Shown here: positions 1,671-45,431 of the stretch, piece after piece
Layout: each line of letters starts with the position of its first letter
Position numbering within the stretch: position 1 is the first letter of the stretch
Assembly: GCA_020073115.1 (NCBI GenBank)
Contig: JAIQFU010000003.1
Coordinates: 1-54,429 of the forward strand
DNA: 54,429 bases
Source of the DNA: Terriglobia bacterium
Lineage (GTDB): Bacteria > Acidobacteriota > Terriglobia > Bryobacterales > Bryobacteraceae
Direction of reading: 5' to 3'
Notes under the pieces: model-generated
The model's database searches: none
Told to the model about the DNA's origin: nothing
What the model saw: only the letters and a program-made list of their open reading frames with translations
Position numbers and translations under genes: made by a program

Positions 1671-1724
1671 CTGCTGACGACCGCTCCCTGCGCTCGACGC
1701 GCGACCGCAGGGAGCGGTCAGCAG
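1671..1724. terminator. Palindromic hairpin, GACCGCTCCCTG family
   Basis: Inverted repeat with arms CTGCTGACGACCGCTCCCTG and CAGGGAGCGGTCAGCAG around a short GC-rich loop. It lies 26 bp after the FecR-like gene and before a convergent gene, so it can terminate transcription from both sides, although there is no T tract. The core ACCGCTCCCTG/CAGGGAGCGGT is shared with the element inside the glycoside hydrolase gene at 44417-44485, so it also belongs to a dispersed palindromic repeat family. Confidence 0.7.
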
Positions 1725-19445: not shown

Positions 19446-19526
19446 ATTCAGGGTTCAGCGATCAGCCTTCAGCAACCGCAGGGTGGCCGAAGCTGAACGC
19501 TGGGAGCTGAAGGCTGAGAGCTGGAA
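19446..19526. repeat. AGCTGA-family palindromic repeat, tuf-rpsJ gap
   Basis: The left arm reads GTTCAGCGATCAGCCTTCAGC. The right arm reads GCTGAACGCTGGGAGCTGAAG followed by GCTGAGAGCTGGAACT. The two pair extensively around a ~15-nt centre. The whole gap is repeat, and it runs to within 2 nt of the rpsJ start codon. Confidence 0.78.
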
Positions 19527-19850: not shown

Positions 19851-19950
19851 TGTCCGCTGTGAGCTATGAGCCCTCAGCTTTCCGCGGCTTCGCCGCCGGA
19901 AGGCCGGGTTCGGATAGCTGAGAGCTGATGGCTGAAAGCTGAGAGCTGAA
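19851..19950. repeat. AGCTGA-family palindromic repeat, rpsJ-rplC gap
   Basis: The left half has CTGTCCGCTGTGAGCTATGAG and CTCAGCTTTCC. The right half has GGATAGCTGAGAGCTGATGG and CTGAAAGCTGAGAGCTGAAT. The centre holds a GCGGCTTCGCCGCC hairpin. The right arm abuts the rplC ATG with no separate Shine-Dalgarno sequence. Confidence 0.78.
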
Positions 19951-21504: not shown

Positions 21505-21588
21505 GAAGCTGTCAGCCGTCAGCTATCAGCTATCAGCCGGATTGGCGGTAGCGGGGAGCTGAGGGCTGAGAGCTGACAGCTGAGAGTT
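21505..21588. repeat. AGCTGA-family palindromic repeat, rplW-rplB gap
   Basis: The left arm is AGCTGTCAGCCGTCAGCTAT with CAGCTATCAGCC. The right arm is GGGAGCTGAGGGCTGAGAGC with TGACAGCTGAGAG. Each left word has its reverse complement on the right. The ATG of rplB follows 4 nt after the element. Confidence 0.8.
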
Positions 21589-34343: not shown

Positions 34344-34348
34344 GAGCA

Positions 34349-34428
34349 GCCATCAGCCGTCAGCTGTCAGCCTTCAGCATCCCGCGGCCTAATTGAAGCT
34401 GATAGCTGAAAGCTGATGGCTGAGAGCT
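34349..34428. repeat. AGCTGA-family palindromic repeat, rpsD-rpoA gap
   Basis: The left arm is GCCATCAGCCGTCAGCTGTC and AGCCTTCAGC. The right arm is GAAGCTGATAGCTGAAAGCT and GATGGCTGAGAGCTTG. It contains an ATG (34416) in frame with rpoA. A separate AGAGAGG follows, so the true rpoA start is downstream. Confidence 0.8.
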
Positions 34429-36998: not shown

Positions 36999-37070
36999 AA
37001 CTATCAGCTCTCAGCTATCAGCCGCCAGCCAGTTGATAGCCGATAGCCGATAGCTGACCGCTGATCGCTC
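36999..37070. repeat. AGCTGA-family palindromic repeat, outside the operon
   Basis: The left words are ACTATCAGCTCTCAGCTATC and AGCCGCCAGCC. The right words are GATAGCCGATAGCCGATAGC and TGACCGCTGATCGC. It is the same family as in the ribosomal operon, here between two minus-strand genes and immediately upstream of the aldo/keto reductase start codon. Confidence 0.75.
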
Positions 37071-42416: not shown

Positions 42417-45400
42417 ATGGCTATGCGAAAGATCGCGCTCGTGGCGCTGGCATTCTCGACGTTGTGTTCCGCGGCGGCGGTGGACTCCCTCGACCGTCTC
42501 AAAGCCCTGTTCCCTAAACCGCCCGCGGAATTCAGCACGCTCCCGTTCTTCGTGTGGAACGGCGAGATCACCGAAGCGATGATCGACCGCGAGCTTCGGG
42601 ATTTCTCCGCGCAGGGAATCCATGGCTTCATCATCCACCCGCGCCCGGGCCTCATCACGCCCTACCTCTCGGACCGCTGGTTCCAGTTGATCCGCTACAC
42701 CGTGGACGGCGCGAAGAAACTCGGTATGGAAGCGTGGCTCTACGATGAGAACTCCTACCCCAGCGGCTTCGGCGGCGGACACGTGCCGGCGGAAATGCCG
42801 GAATCCTTCAACCAGGGGCAGGGGCTGGCGCTCCAGCCAGGCGGGCCCTGCAAGATCCTCCTTCAAAAGGTGGGGGACCGGTTCGAGGATGTCACCGGCA
42901 AAGGCGACCCCACCGGGCCCGGGATGTACTGCTTCGGCCTCACCCAATATCCGGTGCGCGCCTGGAACGCGGGGTTCTCGTATGTGGATCTTCTCCTGCC
43001 GGGCGTCACGCAGAAATTCATCGACGTGACGATGCGCGGATACGAGAAGACCCTGGGGCCGGACCTGGGACCCGTCGTGCCGGGCATCTTCACCGACGAG
43101 CCGAACATCAGCCCTCCGGGGCGCGGCGCGGTGAAATACACCCCCGATCTATTCGAGCAGTTCCACGAGCGGTGGGGCTACGATCTGAAGGCCAACCTGC
43201 CCTCTCTGTTCGAGGAGGTCGGCGACTGGCGGCGCGTGCGGCACAACTACAACGCCGTGCTGCTGGACCTGTTCATCGAGCGCTGGTCGAAGCCCTACCA
43301 CGATTACGCCGCGAGCAAGGGCATCGCCTGGACGGGCCACTATTGGGAGCACGGGTGGCCCAACCCTTCGGAGGGCCCCGACAACATGGCCATGTACGCC
43401 TGGCACCAGGTCCCCGGGATCGACATGCTCTTCAACCAGTTCAACGAAAGGGTCAACGCGCAATTCGGGAACGTGCGCAGCGTAAAGGAACTGGCGAGCG
43501 CGGCGAACCAGGTGGGGCAACGGCGGACGCTGAGCGAAACGTACGGGGGCGGCGGCTGGGACCTGCGCTTCGAGGACATGAAGCGCCTGGGTGATTGGGA
43601 GTACGCGCTGGGCGTGAACATGATGAACCAGCATCTTTCGTTCGGGACCATCGTGGGCGCGCGCAAATACGACTACCCGCAGTCGTTCAGTTACCACGAG
43701 CCGTGGTGGAAATATTACGGCGTCCTGGGCGATTATTTCGCGCGCCTCTCGCTGGCGCTCTCCGCGGGGCAGGAGATGAACCGGATGCTGGTGATCGAGC
43801 CGACCACGTCGGCATGGATGTACTCCGGCCCGCGGCCGAACGCCCGGATGATGCAGATCGGCAGCGAGTTTCAGGAGTTCATCACCCGGCTTTCGCACCG
43901 CCAGGTGGAATACGACCTGGGCAGCGAAAATATCATCAGGGACCACGGCAAAGTCGAGGGACGGCAGTTCGTGGTGGGCAAGCGCTCGTATGAAACGGTT
44001 GTGCTGCCGCCGGGAACGGAGAGCCTGGACTCCGCCACCGCGAAGCTGCTGGGGCAATATGCGCAGGCCGGCGGGAAACTACTTTCGTACGTCTCGGGAG
44101 ATCTGCTGGTGGATGGAGCGCCCGGCGGCGTCTCGTTCGCGAAGTCCACGGAAGAGTTGGCGAACCCGGAGGTCACGGGCGGGGAAGGGATGTTGTTCCA
44201 CCAGCGCCGGCGGCTCACGGACGGCGAACTGTGGTTCTTCGCGAACTCCAGCCTGGAAGCCTCGGCGCAGGCGGCAGTGAAAACGCGCGGGGGATCCGTG
44301 GAGAAGTGGGATGCTCTCACAGGCCGCACGGAGCCGTTCGCGGCGACGGCCGCGGGCGGGTCGCTGGAGTTTCCGGTATCGCTTCCTCCCGCCGGCAGCT
44401 TGCTCCTGGTTGTGAAACCGCTCCCTGACGGCCGCGGCTCGCAGCCGGCCGCGGTTGTTGCGAGCCGCGAGCGTCAGGGAGCGGTCGAACCGGCCTCCCC
44501 ACTGGCCGTAAAGCGCATGGCGCCGAACGCGCTGCGCATCGATTACTGCGATTTCACCCTGAACGGAAAGACCCAAAAAGAGGTCTACTTCTTCAAAGCC
44601 GCGGACGAGATCTTCAAGGCCTACGGCTTCCAGGACGGAGACCCCTGGAATACCGCGGTGCAGTTCAAGACCTCCATCCTGGACCGCAACAAATTCCCCG
44701 CCGATTCGGGCTTCGATGCGACGTTCTGGTTCGACGTGGCGGAGGGCGTGAACACCGCTTCGCTGCGCGCCGTGGTGGAACGGCCGCCGCTGTGGAAGGT
44801 TTCGGTGAATGGGGTTCCGGTGGAGAACGAGCGCGGCGAGTGGTGGCTGGACGTAGATTTCGGCGTTTACCGCATCGGCGGGCACGTGAAGCCGGGGCGC
44901 AACAGCATCACGCTGGCGGCGCGCCCCATGTCGGTCCATAGCGAACTGGAGCCCGTGCACATCATCGGGGATTTCAATGCGGCCCCGCAGGAACGGGGTT
45001 TTCGGATTGTCCCGGCGCAGGCGTTGCAAGTGGGTTCCTGGAACGAGCAGGGGCTCCCGTTCTATCCGGACACCGTGTCCTACTCGAAGGTCTACACGCT
45101 CAAACGCGGGGAGCAGTACAAGGTCGTGCTGGGCAAGTGGGCGGGAACCGTGGCGGAGGTGCGGGTGAACGGGAAGCCGGCGGGCGTGATCGGGTGGCAG
45201 CCGTACGAGGTGGCCATCGACTCGCTGGCGCAAAACGGGCGGAACACGGTGGCGGTGCTGGTGACCGGCTCCCTGAAGAACCTGCTGGGACCGCATCACG
45301 GGAACATCAGCCGGGGAATGGTTTCACCGGGGAACGTGAGGAACGCGCCCGCGGCGATGCCGCCGGGCACGGGGTACGACTTGTTCCCGTATGGGTTGAT

Positions 45401-45431
45401 GGAGGATTTTCAGGTAGTGCGAGTGCGGTAG
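42417..45431 (+). CDS. Exported GH106-like glycoside hydrolase (putative alpha-L-rhamnosidase)
   Basis: 1004 residues from the ATG at 42417, the first to give a signal peptide (MAMRKIALVALAFSTLCSAAA). The N-terminal catalytic barrel starts FFVWNGEITEAMIDRELRDF and has GFIIHPRPGL, AWLYDENSYPSG and GIFTDEPNIS, with several acidic candidates. Large multi-domain proteins with this beginning are classed near GH106 rhamnosidases. Substrate and catalytic residues are not proven from sequence. Residues ~668-690 are encoded by an exact palindromic 69-bp insert that keeps the frame. The C-terminal beta domains (VHIIGDFNAAPQERGF, WAGTVAEVRVNGKPAGVIGW) resemble a galactose-binding jelly roll. Confidence 0.75.
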   Translation: MAMRKIALVALAFSTLCSAAAVDSLDRLKALFPKPPAEFSTLPFFVWNGEITEAMIDRELRDFSAQGIHGFIIHPRPGLITPYLSDRWFQLIRYTVDGAKKLGMEAWLYDENSYPSGFGGGHVPAEMPESFNQGQGLALQPGGPCKILLQKVGDRFEDVTGKGDPTGPGMYCFGLTQYPVRAWNAGFSYVDLLLPGVTQKFIDVTMRGYEKTLGPDLGPVVPGIFTDEPNISPPGRGAVKYTPDLFEQFHERWGYDLKANLPSLFEEVGDWRRVRHNYNAVLLDLFIERWSKPYHDYAASKGIAWTGHYWEHGWPNPSEGPDNMAMYAWHQVPGIDMLFNQFNERVNAQFGNVRSVKELASAANQVGQRRTLSETYGGGGWDLRFEDMKRLGDWEYALGVNMMNQHLSFGTIVGARKYDYPQSFSYHEPWWKYYGVLGDYFARLSLALSAGQEMNRMLVIEPTTSAWMYSGPRPNARMMQIGSEFQEFITRLSHRQVEYDLGSENIIRDHGKVEGRQFVVGKRSYETVVLPPGTESLDSATAKLLGQYAQAGGKLLSYVSGDLLVDGAPGGVSFAKSTEELANPEVTGGEGMLFHQRRRLTDGELWFFANSSLEASAQAAVKTRGGSVEKWDALTGRTEPFAATAAGGSLEFPVSLPPAGSLLLVVKPLPDGRGSQPAAVVASRERQGAVEPASPLAVKRMAPNALRIDYCDFTLNGKTQKEVYFFKAADEIFKAYGFQDGDPWNTAVQFKTSILDRNKFPADSGFDATFWFDVAEGVNTASLRAVVERPPLWKVSVNGVPVENERGEWWLDVDFGVYRIGGHVKPGRNSITLAARPMSVHSELEPVHIIGDFNAAPQERGFRIVPAQALQVGSWNEQGLPFYPDTVSYSKVYTLKRGEQYKVVLGKWAGTVAEVRVNGKPAGVIGWQPYEVAIDSLAQNGRNTVAVLVTGSLKNLLGPHHGNISRGMVSPGNVRNAPAAMPPGTGYDLFPYGLMEDFQVVRVR
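44417..44485. repeat. 69-bp palindromic element inside a coding sequence
   Basis: Perfect 14-bp outer arms ACCGCTCCCTGACG (44417-44430) and CGTCAGGGAGCGGT (44472-44485), and perfect 10-bp inner arms GCGGCTCGCA (44434-44443) and TGCGAGCCGC (44459-44468). The length is a multiple of three and there is no stop codon, so it encodes PLPDGRGSQPAAVVASRERQ within the hydrolase. The outer core is shared with the intergenic hairpin at 1671-1724. Confidence 0.88.

Follow-up and report, generated by a model that had tools for sequence, protein, structure and literature searches.

The window analysed here, that is, the whole stretch of 54,429 nucleotides taken from contig JAIQFU010000003.1 of a Terriglobia bacterium (Acidobacteriota), contains a gene whose product matches the glycoside hydrolase model PF17132 over residues 190-555 and, under the model's curated cut-off, a jelly-roll model over residues 876-955. 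Between these two matches, at about residues 667-690, the reading frame of this GH106-like protein runs through a long palindrome. The features concerned are as follows.

42417..45431, + strand: host gene, GH106-like protein of 1004 residues (open reading frame and domain matches)
44417..44485, + strand: in-frame palindrome of 69 bp, a REP-like element of subtype A (covariance model and inverted-repeat search)
44417..44443, + strand: left arm, orientation +, ACCGCTCCCTGACGGCCGCGGCTCGCA (exact match to the family arm pattern)
44459..44485, - strand: right arm, orientation - (inverted-repeat and arm-pattern searches)
1678..1720, no strand assigned: hairpin between genes, related to the element but shorter, resembling subtype B (covariance model, 31 bits, E 9e-6)

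The arms, 27 nt each according to the inverted-repeat search, are 93% complementary and enclose a 15-nt spacer. An initial sequence-only reading had described an in-frame palindrome with perfect outer and inner arm runs of 14 and 10 bp; the frame of 42417-45431 indeed contains no stop, the encoded peptide is as claimed and the outer run is perfect over 14 bp, and direct reading extends the inner run to 11 bp. The element scores 70.5 bits on the minus strand and 66.9 bits on the plus strand with a covariance model of the family (span 44415-44487). Its predicted fold is very stable both as RNA (-62.2 kcal/mol, z -8.0) and as DNA (-39.5, z -8.4), with 0 of 200 shuffles as good in either case. The outer ends read ACCGC/GCGGT and no GTAG occurs within 44417-44485. 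Direct reading of the bases at the ends (..GTTGTGAA / CGAACCGG..) reveals no adjacent direct repeat, and a MITE of a DDE insertion sequence was rejected for want of a target site duplication. An Rfam search of the window at the gathering threshold returned no match.

The palindrome belongs to a repeat family. At up to three mismatches, the arm pattern occurs twice in the window against 0.01 expected, and 37 times in the 7.19-Mb host assembly, where a reversed-pattern control gave 0; three of the arms in the host genome are exact. A covariance model built from 22 palindromes yielded 65 matches over both strands at E <= 0.01, corresponding to at least 34 distinct places, as scoring covered 150 of 10,192 candidates; the window copy ranks fourth among these places. 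Two subtypes can be distinguished, A, to which the window copy belongs, and B, which has a different inner part and a CnGATG foot. The CnGA foot is present in subtype B, and no such conservation is seen outside the arms of subtype A. The outer core of the palindrome had been thought to recur in an intergenic hairpin at 1671-1724, and the two are related, the hairpin being the shorter relative listed above.

Gene positions of the host-genome copies were assigned with a home-made codon-usage gene finder: 26 of the 34 copies are intergenic, 4 lie at gene ends and 4 are internal, in a genome with a coding fraction of 0.76. The internal ones lie in the window gene, in an ABC-F ATPase (contig C432), where the copy directly precedes the C-terminal domain, in a molybdopterin oxidoreductase (C78) and on contig C435, where the copy stands near an N-terminus and may supply the start codon, so that its internal status is uncertain. 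In all four, the reading frame is the one that yields GRG. The C435 copy (at L257:2923-4731) is of subtype B and precedes a signal-peptide-like stretch of an FG-GAP/ASPIC protein. Elements within genes numbered 3 of 46 in the related genome G003 and 2 of 45 in G022, some of them near gene starts, in a survey that took up to 40 loci from each genome out of more places. Among arms in the named stretches of a wider collection (see below), 16 of 191 were called intragenic, half of these (8) at most 15 codons from a gene end. The element is therefore mainly extragenic, and the expectation that it can live both between and inside genes is confirmed by copies of both kinds in the host genome. The accompanying claim that such repeats are rare was overstated, given that Di Nocera et al. 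(2013; PMC3733652) already describe in-frame intragenic REPs, including RPE-4 and RPE-6. Two possible signs of coding selection were dropped. Full intragenic copies away from gene ends measure 69, 72 and 60 bp (n=3), and the commonest element lengths are 73 bp in G003 and 61 bp in G022, where 81 bp is common too, so that no length signal can be read from three copies. The lack of A at a variable arm position was likewise discarded, as A occurs there in 3 of 35 arms at the class 3 transposase loci introduced below and in 4 of 79 at G022 loci.

Comparison with homologues shows what occupies the site elsewhere. Of 11 homologue frames, 10 were compared, L043 being left out because its longest frame is not the homologue and contains no anchors. 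The element residues, which are indeed unlike their surroundings, as said at the outset, are absent from all 10. The linker between two conserved anchors is nearly constant in length, with 46 residues in the GH106-like protein vs 38-43 in the homologues; the same-genus orthologue (78% identical) has 41, a net gain of 5 residues in the window gene. These lengths contradict a clean 23-codon addition, as which the palindrome had been interpreted, and this candidate was rejected. Judging from the alignment, the element occupies a site where homologues have a shorter, variable linker. The ABC-F linker that carries a copy is comparable (37 residues vs 33 and 30 in two same-genus genomes), and the Lhr helicase of G003 offers a clearer net gain than the window gene, with 27 residues vs 6 in the host-genome orthologue and 8 in G004. 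A search for decayed copies in the homologue linkers, comprising 20 alignments, gave at best 15 of 1000 (G022) and 57 of 1000 (G003) codon shuffles, which is unconvincing after 20 tests. That the linker is native and palindromic by chance could draw on the tendency of GC-rich linkers to look palindromic and on the one homologue linker that beat 985 of 1000 codon shuffles when aligned to the element, one result out of the 20; with two arms in the window against 0.01 expected, a fold z of -8 and a genome-wide family, such a coincidence is hardly credible.

The family extends well beyond this genome. A degenerate 25-mer arm search of the GTDB collection found at least 118 stretches, and labels obtained for 80 of them comprise 39 Planctomycetota, 34 Acidobacteriota, 3 Chloroflexota, 2 Proteobacteria and 2 without label. 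In Acidobacteriota, 15 of 18 pairs of neighbouring opposite arms are arranged +/-, whereas 21 of 22 in Planctomycetota are arranged -/+. The arm also occurs in 56 stretches from contigs labelled as viral, an origin taken here as labelled. A plasmid search gave no match to the protein or the element. Exact arms are present in 21 of 61 related genomes, with 173 in G022 and 66 in G020. In several stretches (L069, L073, L116, L118, L121, L126 and L159), a sister arm, ACCGCTTGCTGACGCGCGCGGCTC, often pairs with the family arm to form an imperfect palindrome.

In G022, a gene for a Y1 (HUH/tyrosine) transposase with the motifs NHVH and YVVEEQ is flanked on both sides by a full palindrome (72 and 64.5 bits), and similarly flanked Y1 genes occur in G003, G006, G004 and G024. 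Motifs, size and range match class 3 of the TnpA-Y1 transposases. According to Quentin et al. (2018; PMC6006769), class 3 genes carry NHVH, W[TA] and YV[VI][AENY]EQ and are flanked by atypical REP-like structures with a CnGA foot, of which Solibacter usitatus has about 600 copies. In 11 aligned class 3 proteins, H-V-H, the W motif, Y and Q are invariant; the Y motif is exact in some (YVVEEQ in L391 and L393) and a near variant in others. One class 3 protein was used to search the 61 genomes: 19 had matches, reduced to 18 since the match in G028 is a class 2-like gene, and 30 loci were reduced to 28 distinct ones, some of them fragments, by leaving out L409 (the same gene as L395) and L404 (the G028 gene, 25% identical, the same as L215).

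An arm with at most three mismatches lies within 700 bp at 18 of the 28 class 3 loci (17 of 27 excluding the query's own), often 8-35 bp from the gene, vs 1 of 53 other Y1 loci (p 5e-10); for the latter, a script covered 46 loci, none with arms, and whole-locus lists for the other 7 show arms at L207 alone. The remaining 10 class 3 loci, those of G053 among them, have no such arm within 700 bp. At the genome level, 15 of the 61 genomes have both a class 3 gene and exact arms, 6 arms only, 3 a class 3 gene only and 37 neither (p 4e-7). The family might instead have been moved by another enzyme, either a class 1 or class 2 Y1 transposase or a further one, with the presence of class 3 genes being secondary. 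The six genomes with exact arms and no class 3 match, including G020 with its 66 arms at 96% completeness, would suit this alternative, as would arms near other Y1 genes at L207 and at L158, where an exact arm and a fragment (104 residues) of a different Y1 type are 252 bp apart. Given how differently arms are distributed over class 3 and other loci, and their frequent closeness to the class 3 gene, we regard it as unlikely. The Y1 genes of the host genome itself were rejected as resident transposase, because their flanks contain no good arms; an arm with five mismatches lies between two of them.

No class 3 match at E <= 0.001 was detected in the host genome, whose assembly is 95.9% complete. 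Because 15 of the 21 genomes with exact arms have such a gene, its absence is read as loss, and together with the three remaining exact arms this makes the window copy probably a relic. In G001, which belongs to the same genus, the match to the class 3 gene (L392) contains an internal TAA, which indicates that the system is decaying in this genus.

Taken together, these observations make it likely that the window palindrome is a non-autonomous REP-like copy that was spread by a class 3 TnpA-Y1 transposon and is tolerated, presumably without effect on the gene, as a protein linker. In its autonomous form, this transposon would be a transposase gene some 160 codons long, flanked by the same arms. 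If IS200/IS605 elements and REPtrons are a guide, the enzyme would act on single-stranded DNA, where it would recognise the folded arms and cut and rejoin them, leaving no target duplication. Copies that break genes would be lost, leaving most copies just outside genes, and the few surviving inside would be those that are free of stops, keep the frame and fall into tolerant linkers. A different account holds that the element is kept in the GH106-like gene for a function, whether in the mRNA, through a hairpin that delays ribosomes or shields the transcript, or in the protein, where the linker itself would be useful. The stability of the fold and a linker length close to that of the homologues speak for it, as does the covariation of the family's paired positions, although arms copied from each other would give the same signal. 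However, genes are avoided overall, the internal copies lie in unrelated genes, and no second species among the 10 aligned homologues has the element at the site; a function of this kind is improbable. The analysis links a repeat that occurs in several phyla with the little-studied class 3 Y1 transposases and presents copies of it that have been taken up into proteins as linkers.

The REPINs and REPtrons of class 2 RAYTs are built of paired inverted units, include a tyrosine transposase gene flanked by such units and spread non-autonomously. The family studied here appears to share all three features and differs in that its arms occur at 1 of 53 non-class-3 Y1 loci. For the same reason, and for the lack of GTAG in 44417-44485, assignment to the GTAG REPs of class 2 RAYTs was rejected. 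PMC3733652 covers intragenic GTAG and CGTC REPs, including RPE-4 and RPE-6 with CGTC at one end, and already offers the linker explanation, which also appears in PMC6006769. Compared with the REPs of PMC3733652, the present elements are alike in being short palindromes, mostly intergenic near gene ends and some in frame within genes; the window element differs in having no GTAG, in its ACCGC/GCGGT ends and in the class 3 transposase associated with it. The parallel first drawn with the palindromic elements of Rickettsia thus holds as a likeness, and membership in RPE-4/RPE-6 was rejected, as the ends are not CGTC and the family goes with a class 3 Y1 transposase. With class 3 as portrayed in PMC6006769, agreement extends to the transposase motifs and size, to the range over Planctomycetes, Acidobacteria and Proteobacteria, and to the gene-flank position and high copy number of the repeats, which were compared by description rather than by repeat sequence; the passages compared mention neither in-frame copies for class 3 nor a class 3 gene inside another gene. 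Taken alone, the window copy adds one more member to a known kind, as a class 3 REP-like element that a linker has accommodated without loss of frame; both in-frame REPs and class 3 repeats had been published before. Three points go beyond the compared passages of PMC3733652 and PMC6006769: that this sequence is linked to class 3, that it occurs across phyla, and the valS cases described below. A literature text search with the letters of the arm found no paper on the subject, judged by title and start of abstract.

Among the matches listed for class 3 relatives at the arm-holding stretches (at least 118 named and 56 viral), a sole case, L082, was found; none was confirmed in viral contigs. 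Here the class 3 domain lies within a 1343-codon open frame that encodes valyl-tRNA synthetase (ValRS; TIGR00422, 772 bits against a cut-off of 612), with the anticodon and C-terminal domains present and the Y1 match in the middle of the protein. A survey of the 61 genomes around it disclosed four further loci:

L082:3206-7189 (JAJDCZ010000052.1), Phycisphaerales isolate OFTM204: valS with in-frame class 3 Y1 domain, hairpin repeats in frame on the flanks
L538, L540, L547, L553: valS loci with in-frame class 3 Y1 domain and in-frame hairpin repeats, same loop

The valS frames of 39 genomes were read, picked for strong matches or long frames, and frequencies are biased accordingly. Both anchors of the loop, bounded by ALRAL/ALRAM..DQR-like and RFYP.RYAKT-like sequence, are seen in 37 of these 39, and 5 (G061, G108, G104, G063 and G105) carry a class 3 domain in frame, all in the same loop. 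Each of the five domains has the W motif, a Y with Q and either HVH or HIH, and inverted repeats are in frame on both sides of each; G108, whose valS gene is split between contigs, and G104 each have repeats of their own, distinct from those in the remaining three. The repeats beside the G104 transposase (L540), ACGAGCCCGAAGC.., are unlike the family arm, and class 3 transposons with other ends therefore exist. In L082, a solitary arm marks what, by comparison with the Thermus enzyme, is judged a second in-frame insertion further along valS. The L082 genome contains no second full valS match and no second class 3 match; three further matches are 25-30% identical.

No in-frame ATG, GTG or TTG lies between the left repeats and the domain in any of the five inserts, and in four of them ValRS codons 30-82 codons upstream could serve as start. 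The transposase domain should therefore be translated either together with ValRS or from a start codon located in ValRS sequence. Between G108 and G104, the N-terminal part of ValRS is 90% identical and the transposase 50%, which suggests repeated insertion. Insert-bearing hosts scatter among genomes without insert, and in a tree the five valS transposases group against 11 acidobacterial ones (support 0.999). Repeated entry into the loop fits these sequences best, although five cases are few; old inheritance with fast change and many losses is the alternative. In the literature searched, no paper connects valyl-tRNA synthetase to a tyrosine transposase, or to a transposase and in-frame insertion.

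Homing elements, for example inteins with a homing endonuclease, offer a comparison: an essential gene encodes, in frame and at a single site, an enzyme that cuts DNA and seems to have been acquired repeatedly, the enzyme in the valS cases being a Y1 transposase with hairpin repeats. We see about an even chance that class 3 REPtrons are coding-compatible mobile elements, in which the reading frame of a host gene can run through the repeat as well as the transposase, with one lineage resident in ValRS, re-entering the same valS loop in a homing-like manner and made as an internal domain; in-frame parasites would then form a spectrum, with the window repeat at its small, non-autonomous end. If true, the valS cases would represent a transposon that shelters in an essential gene by keeping the frame, and would make it testable how a mobile element lives in coding sequence without destroying it. 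Structure prediction for the L082 transposase domain from its single sequence gave a weak model (pLDDT 65.6), and the matches of this model, none at E <= 0.001, include the IS200, IS608 and ISDra2 transposases and also glutamine synthetases.

The window also holds a second family of imperfect palindromes with CAGCTNTCAGC-like units, found at 19456-19523, 19869-19947, 21507-21581, 34347-34422 and 37003-37065.
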